Source: a virus. Taken from it: a stretch of 43,901 bases of DNA. The notes below the pieces were generated by a model that did not search any database, was not told where the DNA came from, and saw only the letters and a list, made by a program, of their open reading frames with translations. Location of the stretch: positions 1 to 43,901 of the IMG/VR virus record IMGVR_UViG_3300032893_001425, one strand, 5' to 3'. Positions 2,540 to 17,061 of the stretch are shown here, piece by piece. The first letter of the stretch is position 1, and each line of letters begins with the position of its first letter. Position numbers and translations under genes: made by a program.

Positions 2540-2615
2540 TGCGGGTTAGAGGAGTCTGGGACCTTGCTGGGCTCATAACCCTGAGACGCTGGTTCGAATC
2601 CAGCACCCGCAACCA
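2540..2615 (+). tRNA. tRNA-Met (CAU)
   Basis: This is a 76-nt cloverleaf. The acceptor stem TGCGGGT/ACCCGCA is followed by discriminator A and an encoded CCA. The D stem is GAGG/CCTT, the anticodon loop CTCATAA (anticodon CAU), and the T arm GCTGG-TTCGAAT-CCAGC. One U-U mismatch lies in the anticodon stem. From sequence alone, elongator Met, initiator or a lysidine-modified Ile tRNA cannot be told apart; the T1-A72 pair does not suggest the usual bacterial initiator. It sits directly after the rightward promoter. Confidence 0.93.
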
Positions 2616-2695
2616 ATCTTCGTCGTGCTTGAGTAGCCTACCCGGGAGAGAATCCCAAAGGGACTGTAAAAGTGGCCTCGCATGGCAAGCGCTTC

Positions 2696-2721
2696 AGCGC
2701 ACTGAGCGTAATCAGTGCGCT
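2696..2721 (+). other. Strong hairpin between tRNA-Met and tRNA-Tyr
   Basis: AGCGCACTGA (2696-2705) and TCAGTGCGCT (2712-2721) form a perfect 10-bp stem with a 6-nt loop, followed by TCAAATTTC. It may guide tRNA precursor processing or be a weak terminator. No tRNA could be fitted to the 2616-2737 spacer. Confidence 0.55.
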
Positions 2722-2737
2722 TCAAATTTCTACCCAT

Positions 2738-2827
2738 GGGCGTTAGGCGGATGCGGGTAGCCGCGAGTGGCTGTAACCCACTTCCTCCTAGCGAGGTTGA
2801 CAGGTTCAAATCCTGTAGCGCCCACCA
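2738..2827 (+). tRNA. tRNA-Tyr (GUA)
   Basis: This is a 90-nt class II tRNA. The acceptor stem is GGGCGTT/AGCGCCC with an encoded ACCA end. The D stem is GCGG/CCGC, the anticodon stem-loop AGTGG-CTGTAAC-CCACT (anticodon GUA), and the T arm ACAGG-TTCAAAT-CCTGT. The long variable arm (CCTC/GAGG) is as expected for bacterial tRNA-Tyr. Confidence 0.95.
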
Positions 2828-2835
2828 AATTTCAC

Positions 2836-2923
2836 CGGGGTGTAAATCGGTAAAGAGAAGCCGACCTGCCTTGGAAGCAGGAGATTAAGATCACTGGACG
2901 TGCAAGTCGTCTCACCCCGACCA
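2836..2923 (+). tRNA. Non-canonical tRNA, probably Pro (UGG)
   Basis: A perfect 7-bp acceptor stem CGGGGTG/CACCCCG is followed by A and an encoded CCA. The C1-G72 pair with A73 is typical of tRNA-Pro. The anticodon stem-loop is CCTGC-CTTGGAA-GCAGG, giving anticodon UGG. Several parts are odd: the D arm (TCGG/CCGA) lacks the usual GG, A rather than G is at position 37, the variable region is 14 nt long, and the T loop is TGCAAGT instead of TTCAAGT. It is either a divergent working tRNA or one that is decaying. Confidence 0.6.
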
Positions 2924-2938
2924 CATGAGGAGCACAAA

Positions 2939-3004
2939 ATGAGAACACGAAGCAACTTGAAGCCGTGCCCCTCGCGGGTACTGAATACAACCACCACAGT
3001 TTAA
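2939..3004 (+). CDS. Possible 21-aa leader-type peptide within the tRNA cluster
   Basis: ATG at 2939 is preceded by GAGGAGCACAAA, a good Shine-Dalgarno sequence at normal spacing. The frame runs 21 codons to a TAA that ends one base before tRNA-Thr. The peptide is basic and then Thr-rich. No family is recognised. Evidence is limited to the ribosome binding site and the tight fit between two tRNAs. Confidence 0.25.
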   Translation: MRTRSNLKPCPSRVLNTTTTV

Positions 3005-3080
3005 GCCGATGTAGCTCAAGTGGAAGAGCACCCGCCTTGTAAGCGGAAGCGTGCGTTTTCGACTAACGCCAGCGGCTCCA
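3005..3080 (+). tRNA. tRNA-Thr (UGU)
   Basis: This is a 76-nt cloverleaf. The acceptor stem GCCGATG/CAGCGGC has one A-G mismatch, then discriminator T and an encoded CCA. The D stem is GCTC/GAGC, the anticodon loop CTTGTAA (anticodon UGU), and the T arm GCGTT-TTCGACT-AACGC. The GCCGA start resembles bacterial tRNA-Thr. Confidence 0.88.
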
Positions 3081-3172
3081 TGTTAGTGTTTCGATTAACG
3101 ACCGAAGCGTGGTAAGTTTTCGGACTTAAACCGAATGGCTGGGGAGGTGGGTCGAACCAGAAAGGTTCGATC

Positions 3173-3556
3173 ATGTCTCGTTGGAAAAATTCTACACCTG
3201 AACAAAAGCGAAAACTCATCGACAATGTTCAGAGGTGGAGAAGTAACAAAATTCAAAAGCTTAAAGACCTCTTCGGGTCGCAGTGTTCTCTTTGTGGATA
3301 CAACAAATGCATGCGTGCTTTAGAGTTTCATCATTTGAAACCTGAAGAAAAGAGTTTTGCAATTAGTGCACGAGGAAGAATTGTAAGCTGGGAAAGAATG
3401 TTGAAAGAAGCACAAAAGTGCATCCTCGTCTGTGCAAATTGCCATAGAGAGATTGAGAGCAAAAGTTCGCCGCAACATCCGAGGTCCTTGGTTCCTCCTG
3501 CGGCAAGACAACCAAGGAAATTTTTTGAAGCTTCACCGTGGAGCGCTACGATCTGA
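3173..3556 (+). CDS. HNH homing-type endonuclease
   Basis: 127 aa. The N-terminus is basic and helical (RWKNSTPEQKRK...). It is followed by an HNH/zinc module: CSLCGYNKC (about 39-47), LEFHHLKPEEKSF with the catalytic His pair (about 52-64), and CILVCANCHREIE (about 83-95). These features match small free-standing HNH endonucleases that phages carry between genes and that cut DNA to spread themselves. It lies between tRNA-Thr and a structured segment and has no role in the phage cycle. No good Shine-Dalgarno sequence precedes ATG 3173. The last 30 or so residues are encoded by a sequence that can form a terminator-like hairpin, so the C-terminus may be non-native. Confidence 0.85.
   Translation: MSRWKNSTPEQKRKLIDNVQRWRSNKIQKLKDLFGSQCSLCGYNKCMRALEFHHLKPEEKSFAISARGRIVSWERMLKEAQKCILVCANCHREIESKSSPQHPRSLVPPAARQPRKFFEASPWSATI
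3486..3527 (+). terminator. Terminator-like hairpin at the 3' end of the HNH gene
   Basis: CCTTGGTT (3486-3493) pairs perfectly with AACCAAGG (3510-3517), followed by AAATTTTTTG. It lies inside the last codons of the HNH reading frame. It would end transcription of the upstream tRNA/HNH unit. Confidence 0.5.
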
Positions 3557-3909
3557 TCGTTGCGCCTTGAAGCGGTGTTGGAAATCCACGTTTCGATACG
3601 TGGTGAATCCCCAAGGGGTTCCTAGTCCAGCCATTCTTTGGCATCGTAACGAGCTGGCTATCTGAGCGTGTCCCGGCGAATCGAGTGGACCCTGCGCTGC
3701 ATCCGAAGGGACTGCAGAGGCCGCAGAGAAAGCGAAACCACAGCGCTAAAGACAGGACGTGACACCGTACCTGATCTAAGCTCCAAATAGCCTTTGTGTC
3801 ACATAGGCGAACGGAGAATGTGGCCGGGTGCGCAGACGTGCGCACAACTGGAGAAGAATCGCTGGACACTCCAACGGATGAAGGCCGTGAAACTAAAGTC
3901 CAGCGTAAA
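3557..3909 (+). other. Structured segment without a convincing gene
   Basis: No codon-like reading frame is credible here. Hairpins are visible, such as CCACGT/ACGTGG (3586-3603) and AACCCC-type pairs around 3607-3620. A tRNA-like fold with a Phe (GAA) anticodon can be drawn at 3530-3613 but has an abnormal D arm and a short T loop. The segment may be a noncoding RNA, the debris of tRNA genes, or the former 5' part of the adjacent HNH gene. Confidence 0.4.
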
Positions 3910-4128
3910 TTTTTATTTTGTTGCAGCCTTATAACCTGCAACGGGAGGATGCCTCAAACATCCTCCCAACTCTTGCTCGATGTACATCACAAAGACCATG
4001 ACCGAGAGAATAATAAATTAGAAAATCTAGAAGTTTTATGTGTCTGGTGCCACGCACTAGAAACACGTGGGATTGTAGCTCAATCAGGAGAGCGCCTGTC
4101 TTGCACACAGGAGGCAGTCAGAGCATAG
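3796..4128 (+). pseudogene. HNH endonuclease remnant abutting tRNA-Ala
   Basis: Recognisable HNH sequence runs from about 3910 to 4068: FLFCCSLITCNGRM, then LLLDVHHKDHDRENN, then LENLEVLCVWCHALETR. These carry the HH catalytic pair, the Asn residues and the closing CxxCH. The similarity stops exactly where tRNA-Ala begins. The rest of the frame is read-through of the tRNA, and its TAG stop falls inside the tRNA T loop. The 38 codons before residue 39 look random and there is no ribosome binding site at 3796. This is best read as a truncated HNH gene, though a compact intact endonuclease with an unrecognised start is possible. Confidence 0.6.
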
Positions 4129-4144
4129 CTGACCAGTTCCACCA
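4069..4144 (+). tRNA. tRNA-Ala (UGC), atypical T loop
   Basis: This is a 76-nt cloverleaf. The acceptor stem is GGGATTG/CAGTTCC (with wobble pairs) plus an encoded ACCA. The D stem is GCTC/GAGC, the anticodon stem-loop CCTGT-CTTGCAC-ACAGG (anticodon UGC), and the T stem GTCAG/CTGAC. The T loop is AGCATAG rather than TTCRAAT. Everything except the T loop is regular. It lies directly after the HNH remnant and 16 nt before the next coding gene. Confidence 0.82.
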
Positions 4145-5842: not shown

Positions 5843-7555
5843 GTGCCACGAAAAGTTGCGAAGGAAGTTAAAGAACGTCCAGCATACATTTCGGCCACTG
5901 GCGAGCTGGACTTCTCAAAGATTTTTAAGCACCAGCCCAAGCAGTTAGAATTACTGCACACAGTTGTTCGTAAGGGTGGTAGGCGATTCGTTCAAGCCAA
6001 GGCACCGCAATGCTTGAGTGTTGGCGGTATTCGAAGCGGTAAGACTTCGGGTGCGATGATGTTCATGGTCCAGCACTATTGTTTGGCATTCGAAGGGTGC
6101 GACATTCTCATCCTGCGACGAACGTTTAAGGAATTGGAATCTGGAGCCATCGCAGACTTCAAGGCATTCATGCCTGAGGAGTTGTACGATTACGACTCTA
6201 CAAAGCACGTGGCCACTCTGTTCAACGGATCAAGAGTCGTCTTCGGCCACTGCCAGAACAACAAAGAACGAGATATTGAGCAGTACCTAGGACAAGCGTA
6301 CCCAGCGATCCTAGTTGACGAGTGCGGTCAGTTTTCAGCTGACGCGTGGCAGATGTTGTATTCTCGAAACACGGTGAACGCAAATTGCAAACCGGATGAG
6401 TTCGACAACATGCCAATCCCAGTAATTTGGGGATGCACCAACCCATTAGGTCCACACTACGAGTACTACCGCACGTTGTTTGTAGACAAGCGTCCGTACA
6501 ACCCCCCAGAGGGTGCTCGTCGTGATGAGGCAACCGGCGCGTGGTGGAGCTATGAAAATGGCGAGTGGATGCTGCTGTATGATCCACGTGACTATGCGTA
6601 CCAACGTAGTACGGTAATGGATAACCCAGCGCTAACACAACGCGACCCGGGAATCATAAACCGCTTGATGAGTTTACCCAAAGCGAAGCGAGACAAGATG
6701 CTACACGGTCTCGACGGTCGTTTTGAAGGTCAGTACTACGACATCTGGGACCCATCAGTTCACACAATCAATTTACGCGAGGACCCCGATGCAATCATCT
6801 GGCAACCTCATCAACCGGTTTGGTTAGGGCAGGACTGGGGCATGGGTCACGCCAACGCGATCTATTTTTTCACGAAAGCGTTGGTAAAGAAGTCCGTAGG
6901 CACCGACTATGTTTTAAAGACGGTATGTTTTAAGGAGATCGTTGTAACAGGTGGGAAGGGCTACAAAGACTTGGTGCAAATAATCAAGGCGAAGTGCAAA
7001 CTTCCACTGCGCACCGAAGAGCATCCGCAGGGTGTACCGTTTGTGCCCAAAGCAATTTACTTCTCGCACGAAAAATTTAACCGCCAGATGGATGAGCACC
7101 ATACGCCAGCTGACGAGTACTCACGAGAGCTGAGAAGCAATGGCCTGTGTGGCGTTATCAAGGCCACCCGAGATCGTATTGGTTCAGCGTCCTTCATCTA
7201 CAACAAGTTGAAGAACGGTGAGCTGGTGATTCTCGATGAGTGCAAAGAAATCATCTTGACGTTCCCATCTTTAATGCGTGATCCAGATAACATGGATGAC
7301 GTATTGAAGACTGAGGCTAAAGGTGACGACTGCTATGATGGATTCCGTTACGGTTTGTATGGAGAGCTGCGCGAGCGAAAGAAACCGGCTGTTGAGGCGG
7401 TGATCGACCGCGCCAAAGAGTTGGAGAAGACCGACCCACTCGCTGCACACTTCTACAAGATGAAGATGATGGCGCAGGTTCACAAAGCGAACGCGCCGTT
7501 CACACAACCGAAGATACCTCACTGGCAAGCTAAAATGAATGGACTACACTCATGA
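5843..7555 (+). CDS. terL: Terminase large subunit (packaging ATPase and nuclease)
   Basis: 570 aa, GTG start at 5843 with AGGAG in the end of the previous gene. The ATPase domain shows Walker A GGIRSGKT (61-68), Walker B AILVDE (155-160) and a likely coupling motif IWGCTNP (195-201). The C-terminal nuclease has an acidic start GQDWG (D331), with later acidic residues around TEAKGDDCYDG matching the RNase H-like fold of TerL. It powers DNA translocation into the prohead through the portal and cuts the DNA. The next gene starts inside its stop (ATGA at 7552), so translation is coupled. Confidence 0.95.
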   Translation: MPRKVAKEVKERPAYISATGELDFSKIFKHQPKQLELLHTVVRKGGRRFVQAKAPQCLSVGGIRSGKTSGAMMFMVQHYCLAFEGCDILILRRTFKELESGAIADFKAFMPEELYDYDSTKHVATLFNGSRVVFGHCQNNKERDIEQYLGQAYPAILVDECGQFSADAWQMLYSRNTVNANCKPDEFDNMPIPVIWGCTNPLGPHYEYYRTLFVDKRPYNPPEGARRDEATGAWWSYENGEWMLLYDPRDYAYQRSTVMDNPALTQRDPGIINRLMSLPKAKRDKMLHGLDGRFEGQYYDIWDPSVHTINLREDPDAIIWQPHQPVWLGQDWGMGHANAIYFFTKALVKKSVGTDYVLKTVCFKEIVVTGGKGYKDLVQIIKAKCKLPLRTEEHPQGVPFVPKAIYFSHEKFNRQMDEHHTPADEYSRELRSNGLCGVIKATRDRIGSASFIYNKLKNGELVILDECKEIILTFPSLMRDPDNMDDVLKTEAKGDDCYDGFRYGLYGELRERKKPAVEAVIDRAKELEKTDPLAAHFYKMKMMAQVHKANAPFTQPKIPHWQAKMNGLHS

Positions 7556-13468: not shown

Positions 13469-15038
13469 ATGGCACTTTTAGAAGCCGCAGTAGAGGCGGT
13501 AGAACTTGATGCGTTTGCTAAGGAAATTCCTGATTTGGTTTTCCACGGCACCACAGGCTACAGCTTGTTTAAAAATGAAGCGACGAAGGTCCCCGTTTCG
13601 AACCAGTCTAACGCTGGTGGAACGCAGCGTCCTTCGTTCCGTGTACCGTTCCGCGTACAGGCTGGTTCCGCAATTGCACAGGGAACTGGTAACGCTGACG
13701 CGATGGGACGTGGTACGGGTTCGCAGTGGGCATCCTTTGCTCTGGCACCGATTTATCTCTTCAACGTTTGCGAAATCAGCTGGCTGGCTCAGGCCTCCAC
13801 TGACAGCAAGTCGAAGGGCCTCTTCGCGGTAAAAGCCCAAGAGATGAAGAACTCCTTGGATGCCGCTATGCAGGGCATCGAAGGTCTGATCAACGGCGAC
13901 GGTTCCGGTATGATCGACCAGATTCCTTCGACTGCAACCGTTAACAACAACACTGGTACTGGTGCTCAGACTTCGAGCATCGTCGGCCTGAACGTTGCAG
14001 TGGCGTTCACCGATCAGCAGGTTGTGTCTGTGTACAGCGCTGCCGGTGCGCTGCGTGGGACCGCTACGATTTCTTACAGCGATGGTCCTAGCAACACTCT
14101 GTATTTCTCCACCGCACTTCCCGGTGGAACGACCACAACGGACTTCCTCGTTGTGAGCGGAGCAACGTACGGCTCTGGAAACTCCTTGCTCGGTATCCGC
14201 GCATGGGACGTTAACAGCAACACCGGTATCATCGGTGGTCTGAACCGTGCGAACTTCCCGGGTCGGCTGAGCACCCCTACCATTAACTTGGCCGGTGCAG
14301 CCCTTACTCCGGGATTGGCGAACCGTGCAGAGGTCCTGTTGGGCCGAGCACTCGGTCCCGATGCTGACTCGATCAAGAGCGGTATTTGGTATGGACCACC
14401 TGAGCAGGCATACGCGCAGTCGAACTTGATGTACAACGTTCAGATTGCGAACGCTCAGGATATCAAGGGTGACAAGACCCTCGATATGGCGAAGAAATTC
14501 TTCGCAGATACGTTTGGTGGACGCAAGTACCACAAGAGCTGGACTGCCCAGCCCAACCGTATCGACCTTCTGGTTATGGATAATTGGTACATTGGGGAAT
14601 TGAGCCCTCTGGAACTCTATGATTTCGGTGGAGGCAATGTGGTGGCACCTGTGCCGGATGTGAATAGCTCAACCCCCAGCAACGCCAGCTACCTCACCTC
14701 GCATATGTTCGCGTACAACACTTGTTTTAACCTCTGTGGAAATCGCAGCTCTAAGTAGAAATGCTTAGATGAATAACTCAGTTAATTCAGGGAATCTCCA
14801 AATTAAATTTGGACAATCCTGAGCCAAGCCTCTTTTAGAGGAAGGTGCAACGACTATTCCGAAAGGAAGTAGGTCTCAAGTGAGATCGAAATGCTGAGTA
14901 CCTGAAAAGGTAATGATATAGTCTGAGCCTTTGAGTAATCAAAGGAGATTAAGTGGAAACGACTTAATCGTAACACAACCGAATGCAGCTCCGCGAGCTG
15001 GTCTGTTCGTCCAGAACGCCGCTGTCCCAACGATTTAA
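13469..15038 (+). CDS. Major capsid protein, two exons joined across a group I intron
   Basis: Exon 1 is 13469-14756 and exon 2 is 14971-15038, giving 451 aa after splicing. Unspliced, the frame ends at a TAG (14756-14758) created at the exon-intron border. Splicing after T14756 and before T14971 restores the frame through a TTA codon. It adds LTQPNAAPRAGLFVQNAA and a short tail, a plausible capsid C-terminus, after CFNLCGNRSSK. The protein has an N-terminal helix, a central region with an inserted Ser/Thr/Gly-rich beta segment (about 155-235), and AQPNRIDLLVMDNWY before the end, as in HK97-fold capsids. Position after the scaffold-like gene supports this. The ribosome binding site is weak (TTTGAGG 10 nt upstream). 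Confidence 0.9.
14757..14970 (+). ncRNA. Group I self-splicing intron in the capsid gene
   Basis: 214 nt without its own ORF. P1 pairs exon end CTAAGT (14751-14756) with GCTTAG (14763-14768), giving the conserved U-G pair at the 5' splice site. The core has AATCCTGAGCCAAGCC (about 14815-14830), a hallmark of group I P3-P4 regions. P7 pairs GACTA (14852-14856) with TAGTC (14919-14923). P8 is TACCT-GAAA-AGGTA. P9 is CCTTTGA-GTAA-TCAAAGG (14928-14945), and a further 8-bp stem (14947-14954 with 14962-14969) ends just before the terminal G14970. The intron removes the premature stop and restores the capsid frame. An endonuclease VII gene 250 nt downstream could mobilise it. Confidence 0.92.
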
Positions 15039-15222: not shown

Positions 15223-15813
15223 ATGGGAAACCCAAAAGGTAATCCAAAACCACAATACGAAGGAATGATTCCAGAGCAAAGAAAATCAGCATACTGGAAA
15301 AACTCCTATGAGAAACATAAAGTCAAGAGGCAAGCCGAAGGCCGAGTACAAGCTAAGAAGTACCGAACAGAAAACAGAGAAATAGTTTTAGAGAAAAAAC
15401 TGGATCAGTGGTTACGAGACAATTTCAAGAGAACGTCTGAGTGGTATGTTGAGACTTTGCTAGGGCAAAATGGCCATTGTGCTTTGTGTGACCGTGTGCC
15501 TACAACGAGACGTTTTCAGGTAGACCACGATCACGACTGCTGCCCAACGGATAAATCTCACAGAAAAACATGTGGTAAATGTATACGCGGTCTACTATGT
15601 GAGCCCTGCAACACAGATTTAGGAAGATTAGAACGTACTCTCAAGGATGCCTTCTTCATAATCAAGCTCGGCAAGGAAGACTCGTGGACTGCCAAGGCAC
15701 TCCGCTACTTGGCTAAGTGGAAGACTCAAGAGATTCAAACGTGCACTCGGGTAGAACCCCATGTGTGCACAGTAAATGGGCCATGCAACGGCTGGCCAAG
15801 GACTCAGCAATGA
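15223..15813 (+). CDS. Recombination endonuclease VII-like nuclease
   Basis: 196 aa from ATG 15223, chosen for GAAGGGAGAAAG directly upstream; earlier in-frame codons overlap capsid exon 2. The N-terminal third is basic and helical. The core is a beta-beta-alpha metal/HNH-type domain: CALCDRV (about 87-93), VDHDHDCCP with the catalytic Asp/His residues (about 102-110), and CGKCIRGLLCEPCNTDLG (about 119-136). The pattern CxxC, DHDH, RGLLC..CN is typical of endonuclease VII, a resolvase of branched DNA that also occurs as a mobile homing-type enzyme. Next to an intron-split capsid gene it may act in homing. The following gene starts at its stop (ATGA). Confidence 0.9.
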   Translation: MGNPKGNPKPQYEGMIPEQRKSAYWKNSYEKHKVKRQAEGRVQAKKYRTENREIVLEKKLDQWLRDNFKRTSEWYVETLLGQNGHCALCDRVPTTRRFQVDHDHDCCPTDKSHRKTCGKCIRGLLCEPCNTDLGRLERTLKDAFFIIKLGKEDSWTAKALRYLAKWKTQEIQTCTRVEPHVCTVNGPCNGWPRTQQ

Positions 15814-16320: not shown

Positions 16321-17061
16321 ATGAATAACGGTGGAGATGTTCTGGCACGTGGCGCGAAGAGCGCTCAGTTTGCTGGTGGAGCGGCAACAATTTCTCAGTT
16401 CGAAGATGACCTGATTTTCCGGCCCGAGATCGTAGGTGTGAAGTATGGCCTCTCTCAGGTTGAGATCGACCAGTTTCAGGAGAAGCGCAATAACGGCGAG
16501 AAGCTTCCTGAGCTAATGACTGTAGCTGAGCGAGAAGAGCTTAGCACCTTGAATTTGAAAGTCGTGGATAAGCGCCCCAACTTCTTGGAGGCCTCGCATC
16601 CGCTTGCTGAGTCCGCACATACTGCGGCGCAGGTTAAGAAGTACCCAGAGCCCGAGTATGAAGTGGGGAAACCGATTCTAGATCGCGTCGTTATTATGCG
16701 AATCCCGGATGACCCAAACCTAGAAATTCTTGAAGACGGCAGCGCTCGCGATAAGCGCACAGGGTTTATCATCCCGCCACGGTACCGCCAGCATTCGAAC
16801 ACAGGCATCGTGATCGCCATCGGAGACTTCGTAGTCATGGGTGGTGTGAAGACCCCACTGAACACGATTGTGAACCCGGGTGACAAGGTAACCTACGGAG
16901 ATTACAACTCAGAAATCTTCCACGCATCGGCTGCAAAAGTCGAGGCAATGTGTGATGCTGCACAGGTGAACTATAACCCCGACCCCGAAGCGATTCGAGT
17001 CGTGCGCGTTCAGGATATTCGCCTTGTTGAACGTCCTAAGGTTTCCAAAGGGGACAACTAA
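16321..17061 (+). CDS. GroES-like co-chaperonin with an added N-terminal region
   Basis: 246 aa, ATG with CAGGAGACTC upstream. Residues about 117-238 resemble GroES: GKPILDRVVIMRIPD matches the LHDRVIVKR start; RTGFIIPP (146-153) corresponds to the mobile loop with its GroEL-binding hydrophobic triad (here FII); TGIVIAIGD (161-169) matches the conserved GEVLAVG; NPGDKVTYGDYNSEIF (185-200) matches VGDIVIFNDGYG; and VRVQDIRLVE (228-237) the last strand. The N-terminal 116 residues are unrelated. A phage co-chaperonin would cap the host GroEL ring, as T4 gp31 does, to fold capsid or tail proteins. Its place among head genes supports this. GroES proteins are usually about 95 aa, so the extension is unusual. 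Confidence 0.8.
   Translation: MNNGGDVLARGAKSAQFAGGAATISQFEDDLIFRPEIVGVKYGLSQVEIDQFQEKRNNGEKLPELMTVAEREELSTLNLKVVDKRPNFLEASHPLAESAHTAAQVKKYPEPEYEVGKPILDRVVIMRIPDDPNLEILEDGSARDKRTGFIIPPRYRQHSNTGIVIAIGDFVVMGGVKTPLNTIVNPGDKVTYGDYNSEIFHASAAKVEAMCDAAQVNYNPDPEAIRVVRVQDIRLVERPKVSKGDN

Follow-up and report, generated by a model that had tools for sequence, protein, structure and literature searches.

Group I introns in phage major capsid genes have been described for mycobacteriophage LittleE (cluster J), in which splicing was shown, and, as cited in the same report, for the lactococcal phage Tuc2009 (PMC3706429). The LittleE gene carries one 820-nt intron that contains an endonuclease and lies near the capsid processing site (PMC3706429). 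Several group I introns can also occupy one phage gene, up to three in the sources found; examples are a Twort gene with three introns and the DNA polymerase and terminase genes of the Bastillevirinae (PMC11878797). At the small end of the size range, putative group I introns of 63 to 75 nt occur in fungal rDNA (PMC3160393). In the laboratory constructs called spliceozymes, an engineered group I core removes a separate intron that has no core (PMC4509937).

Here we describe an intron in a phage known from metagenomes alone. The window, by which we mean the whole stretch of DNA analyzed (IMG/VR virus record IMGVR_UViG_3300032893_001425; 43,901 bases), is a single metagenomic contig. Taking splicing, landing site, and spread together, we consider it very probable that the window contains a self-splicing, IA-like group I intron in what is most likely the capsid gene (Table 1). 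As in LittleE and Tuc2009, the interrupted gene is likely to encode the major capsid protein, but the window intron is only 244 nt long, has no ORF, lies near the 3′ end of the gene, and belongs to a gene family with 23 insertion sites. Its core sequence and architecture are like those of the RF00028 introns of staphylococcal phages (Twort and relatives), which are its nearest known-phage sequences (about 69–77% nucleotide identity over 145–230 nt). Those introns reside in genes such as helicase and cell wall hydrolase, whereas this one is in a capsid-type gene of an unclassified phage. Judged by its sequence, the window intron by itself is an ordinary phage group I intron; what is perhaps new is the intron load of the capsid gene and the possible presence of core-less introns in this phage group.

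Table 1. Coordinates of the window intron, its flanking exons and neighboring gene, and of the mini-inserts in relatives.
Feature	Position	Strand	Basis or elements
Exon 1, putative major capsid gene, 423 codons	13469–14737	+	ORF and ~80% identical uninterrupted homologues
Group I intron, 244 nt, phase 0 (codons 423/424), IA-like, no internal ORF	14738–14981	+	RF00028, homologues, alignments
P1 5′ exon strand CUGU; U14737 pairs with G14745	14734–14737	+	Single-sequence fold, coordinate check
P1 internal guide strand GCAG	14745–14748	+	Single-sequence fold
P2 hairpin, GAAA loop (P1 of the preliminary description)	14750–14769	+	8/8 pairs change on both sides in family
P3 5′ strand CUCAG, partner CUGAG 14894–14898	14777–14781	+	100% paired, double changes in 3/5 pairs
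P4/P5 (UUCAGG ... CCUGAG)	14786–14823	+	Family covariation helices 4 and 5
P7 5′ strand GACUA, partner UAGUC 14919–14923; pseudoknot with P3, guanosine site	14852–14856	+	Invariant in 8/8 members
P7.1 and P7.2 hairpins	14857–14887	+	Family helices 9 and 10
P8 hairpin	14899–14914	+	Family helix 11
P9 and P9.1 hairpins	14929–14971	+	Double changes in 13/16 pairs (helices 12, 13)
Terminal guanosine, 3′ splice site	14981	+	Invariant G column, family alignment
Exon 2, NAAPRAGLFVQNAAVPTI and stop TAA 15036–15038	14982–15038	+	Matches homologue C-termini
Separate gene for endonuclease VII (HNH-type), possible partner in mobility	15223–15813	+	PF02945, E = 7e-14; PHROG endonuclease VII
Mini-insert	L018:473–513		P1 (U.G), P10, terminal G
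Mini-insert	L020:225–264		P1 (U.G), P10, terminal G
Mini-insert	L029:89–128		P1 (U.G), P10, terminal G
Mini-insert	L094:1228–1268		P1 (U.G), P10, terminal G
Mini-insert	L046:3800–3848		P1 (U.G), P10, terminal G
Mini-insert	L042:4728–4766		P1 (U.G), P10, terminal G
Mini-insert	L028:4691–4729		P1 (U.G), P10, terminal G
Mini-insert	L049:4955–5000		P1 (U.G), P10, terminal G

A preliminary description of the window, made from its letters, had proposed that a group I intron interrupts the gene beginning at 13469, close to its 3′ end, and had recommended a covariance-model search. When this search was run, the Rfam group I model RF00028 matched positions 14728 to 14945 (+) over the whole model, with a score of 86.0 bits (E = 1.1e-20; gathering score, 50). 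The single-strand fold of 14722–14990 was more stable than 200 of 200 dinucleotide shuffles (z = −3.8). Because the model matches and the fold surpasses its shuffles, the basic intron claim is right and is not a product of chance. The Rfam scan of all 43,901 bases revealed no second group I intron above the gathering threshold. The unspliced ORF reaches a stop at 14756–14758, and an ORF check confirmed that joining the exons restores the reading frame, as had been proposed.

The borders of the intron were set by comparison with ten uninterrupted homologues that are 62 to 82% identical to the window protein (L003–L007 and L039, about 80%; L022–L024 and L050, about 62%). These pass from ...CFNL directly to NAAPR or variants thereof, and their C-termini (...CFNLA-NAAPRAGLYVQNAAVPTV, CFNLANAAPRAGLYVQNAAVPTV, and variants) hold nothing between NL(A) and NAAPR. 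The preliminary description had instead drawn a 214-nt intron at 14757–14970 with P1 formed by CTAAG/CTTAG. That placement likewise preserves the frame and puts a U before the intron and a G at its end, but it adds the ten residues GNRSSKLTQP, which are missing from 10 of 10 uninterrupted homologues. In addition, its P1 is the P2 of the intron family, where 8 of 8 pairs covary, and its 3′ G falls 11 nt short of the conserved 3′ end. We therefore regard these borders as highly improbable. Because the homologues leave no room for GNRSSKLTQP, we place the intron at 14738–14981, the sole position that matches the homologues without a gap while leaving a U as the last nucleotide of exon 1 and a G as that of the intron. 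An intron-aware protein-to-DNA alignment independently returns the same borders, and when the intron is aligned with seven related introns that occupy this gene in other phages, the terminal G forms an invariant column.

With this placement, the exons are joined exactly as in the intron-less alleles. The predicted junction in the spliced RNA is ...AACCTCTGT followed directly by AATGCAGCT..., and the predicted 441-aa product ends in ...FNLC followed by NAAPRAGLFVQNAAVPTI, without the RSSK/LTQP junction and hence without the peptide LTQPNAAPR that had been proposed for detection. At the protein level the earlier version is 30 nt off, giving ten spurious residues and 451 instead of 441 aa, so its frame was kept by luck. 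Its expectation that the intron truncates the predicted ORF holds, but the lost tail is 18 residues rather than 22, and the false tail is GNRSSK. The product should be annotated with a length of 441 aa; in this phage group, automated gene calling will give the gene a wrong end or break it into pieces.

The structural model for the intron was assessed with eight related introns. It comprises 69 base pairs with the P7 pseudoknot counted in, and these are 96.4% paired, compared with 78.6% in shuffles and 32–42% in slid controls; changes on both sides occur in 41 of the 69 pairs, and none of 500 shuffles performed as well. A catalytic core with the P7 guanosine site is present, with P3, P4, P6, P7, and P8 counted on all eight sequences. 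The P3–P4, P7, P8, and P9 elements that had been named beforehand are all there, as are P7.1 and P7.2, which had been overlooked. The true P1 is CUGU/GCAG with a U14737.G14745 pair, and a U.G pair is found in the other seven family members as well. The window P1 was taken from the single-sequence fold; its exon strand is displaced by three columns in the family alignment (A2), and therefore the family counts for P1 apply to the other seven members. P10 is weak in the window intron and throughout its family. Helices P7.1 and P7.2 between P7 and P3 are an established criterion for subgroup IA. Because both are present, we classify the window intron as IA-like on structural grounds.

In the proposed reaction, the transcript would fold so as to pair the last four nucleotides of exon 1, CUGU, with the internal guide GCAG, a guanosine held in P7 would cut after U14737, and exon 1 would then attack after G14981, yielding a joined mRNA for the 441-aa protein. 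One could argue instead that the intron is a dead relic, that the phage makes a truncated 429-aa protein, and that the downstream exon goes unused, given that the locus is represented by a single metagenomic contig. However, exon 2 keeps 18 codons aligned with the homologues, family covariation indicates an intact catalytic core, and the exons remain intact in relatives whose introns lie at other sites. Such a relic therefore seems very unlikely, and we favor an intron that is probably spliced.

The identification of the interrupted gene as the major capsid gene, which the preliminary description had taken as given, is likely rather than proven. It follows from gene order, wherein TerL (5843–7555) precedes 907-aa and 501-aa proteins in portal and scaffold positions and then the intron-bearing gene, and from a distant relative (L111) that matches the PHROG family ‘major head protein’ (E = 5e-4). 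The window protein itself had no match in Pfam, PHROG, or PDB and no relative among 50,697 phage records, and its AlphaFold model (pLDDT 36) was discarded for fold reading. A prophage search of bacterial genomes for a host confirmed no relative.

Relatives of the putative capsid gene were gathered in three scans of IMG/VR. Inserts were mapped by an intron-aware protein-to-DNA alignment of each gene, followed by a check of the borders for P1 and P10, and each insertion position was named by residue number and phase (the window intron being 423.0). Among 46 complete genes, a set that includes some near-duplicate assemblies, 31 are interrupted by one to seven inserts each and 15 are uninterrupted. 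The inserts occupy 23 positions, a tally in which two of 24 initial position labels were moved to 15.1 and 21.0 by re-alignment. A 1684-nt ‘intron’ of L111/L112 proposed by the alignment program was treated as spurious and excluded from this tally. L017 has a second Rfam group I match (L017:6524–6735) right after its 418.1 intron, where it overlaps the capsid C-terminus; the intron counts in relatives are lower bounds.

The most heavily interrupted gene is that of L094 (L094:987–5059), with seven inserts at 6.0, 15.0, 21.0, 100.1, 120.2, 147.0, and 419.2. Its inserts range from 41 to 731 nt, and its exons include an 18-nt micro-exon, TTTGCTAAGGAAATCCCT, and one of 27 nt. Whereas Twort and Bastillevirinae genes hold up to three introns, relatives here thus reach seven inserts in a 1.3-kb gene. 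In these stretches, no split was seen in homologues of the portal (41 loci) or of the scaffold (48 loci). The preliminary description had called the capsid gene one of the less common intron targets, which is true of published phages, but in this group it is the densest target that we have seen. We propose that the gene is a favored landing site for group I introns in this phage group. That a single short virion gene, presumably expressed at a high level, accommodates introns at 23 positions and as many as seven together makes it a test of the number of introns that can be carried by a late phage mRNA.

Inserts of relatives show P1 at their borders and often P10, and two families recur. The first, to which the window intron belongs, is about 237–245 nt long with a weak P10. 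The second measures about 194–225 nt, and most of its members have a strong P10; they mostly score too low for the Rfam group I cut-off, and many would escape routine annotation. Introns of about 200 nt, many with strong P10, were seen at sites 412.0–427.0 in L002, L008–L016, L018, L020, and others. Outside the capsid gene, group I introns were noted in L114 (G040:18500–22500), L113/L115, and L116, apparently in TerL and another virion-type gene.

Eight lineages (L018, L020, L028, L029, L042/L043, L046, L049, and L090/L092/L094) also carry mini-inserts of 39 to 49 nt. These split the first 21 codons of the gene and do not permit read-through, as they either disrupt the reading frame or bring in an in-frame stop early on. 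Their borders are reproduced by protein alignment alone, and those of L090/L092/L094 and of L042/L043 are repeated in separate assemblies. In each, exon 1 ends in a U paired to a guide (P1 of 5–9 bp), the strand preceding the guide pairs with the start of exon 2 (P10 of 5–8 bp), and the last nucleotide is G; some carry a small terminal hairpin. For each of seven tested, this pairing was reached by at most 2 of 20,000 shuffles. Furthermore, exon and guide change together in P1 and P10 among L018, L020, and L029/L094 (GGCAAA:UUUGCC to AGCAAA:UUUGCU; UUGACGC:GCGUCAA to UAGACGC:GCGUCUA). The mini-inserts have no catalytic core, and a search of them for P7 found none.

The mini-inserts occupy four positions, three of which (6.0, 15.0, and 21.0) are occupied by full introns elsewhere among the relatives, and they therefore look like introns from which the core has been deleted. 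Each of the eight is followed by a full group I intron at a distance of 18–83 nt. Of 12 lineages in which codons 1–38 contain a full intron, 8 have a mini-insert, compared with 0 of 32 lineages that lack such an intron there (Fisher p = 3e-6, uncorrected for ancestry). We tentatively propose, as a reading that is plausible but falls just short of probable, that the mini-inserts are natural core-less group I introns that may be removed by the ribozyme core of the downstream neighbor in the same transcript. Rival readings are that they splice autonomously or that they sit in dead genes. Translational bypassing of the mini-inserts is disfavored because no take-off codon is repeated at a landing site in the sequences examined and because the mini-inserts end in G after a U. 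A de novo P1/P10 scan for further cases without homology guidance, which demanded flanking exons longer than those of the known mini-inserts, gave 27 matches and is uninformative because this number falls within the range of 12–38 obtained with decoy pairing rules.

The nearest natural case to the mini-inserts in the open-access literature is that of the fungal rDNA introns of 63–75 nt. Both have P1 with U.G, P10, and a reduced core. However, the fungal introns retain a P7-like element, have U as their last nucleotide, and are confined to one clade and nearly all to one site, whereas the phage mini-inserts are shorter, end in G, and lie at four positions beside full introns. The proposed mechanism would use the same chemistry as a spliceozyme, except that the spliceozyme bears the guide on the ribozyme and each mini-insert carries its own. 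If spliced, the mini-inserts would set a new lower size limit for group I-type introns, as far as the open-access literature shows, and would provide the first example in nature of introns that rely on a neighbor's core, with priority uncertain in both respects. Should removal by a neighboring core prove true, the spliceozyme would have a counterpart in nature, one that in ribozyme form resembles an early step toward trans-acting splicing, and the evolution of a shared splicing machine from self-splicing introns would become directly testable in a simple system.

With regard to mobility, the 244-nt window intron was checked for an internal endonuclease ORF and has none. Longer introns of relatives encode GIY-YIG (21.0), LAGLIDADG (100.1, 120.2, and 147.0), or endonuclease VII (372.0, assigned by eye, and 415.1) proteins. 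Because the window intron is without an endonuclease of its own, it probably spread by homing in the past, when it still had one, or with help from a separate nuclease. A candidate is the endonuclease VII gene that starts about 180 bp downstream of the capsid stop codon, whose product is 39% identical to the endonuclease within a capsid intron of L040. Endonucleases of this family are contained in capsid introns of both L040 and L055.

By collaborative homing, this downstream nuclease would move the window intron by cutting intron-less capsid genes, a route in keeping with the presence of the same nuclease family inside capsid introns at 415.1 and 372.0 and by the precedents of the Endo VII-type F-CphI and the T4-type trans-acting nucleases (PMC6083498, PMC3984707). 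However, most relatives have a similar gene after the capsid gene, even where the latter is uninterrupted (L003, L005, L022–L024, and L050). The nuclease is therefore not specifically tied to the window intron and may be an old neighbor with another role, and we consider its participation rather unlikely. Elsewhere in the window, an ORF of 246 aa (16321–17061) matches Cpn10 (GroES-like; Pfam E = 4e-5), and tRNA genes lie within 2540–4141. ARAGORN calls these as Met, Tyr, and Thr, and one differs between ARAGORN and Rfam (2738–2827 versus 4069–4141).
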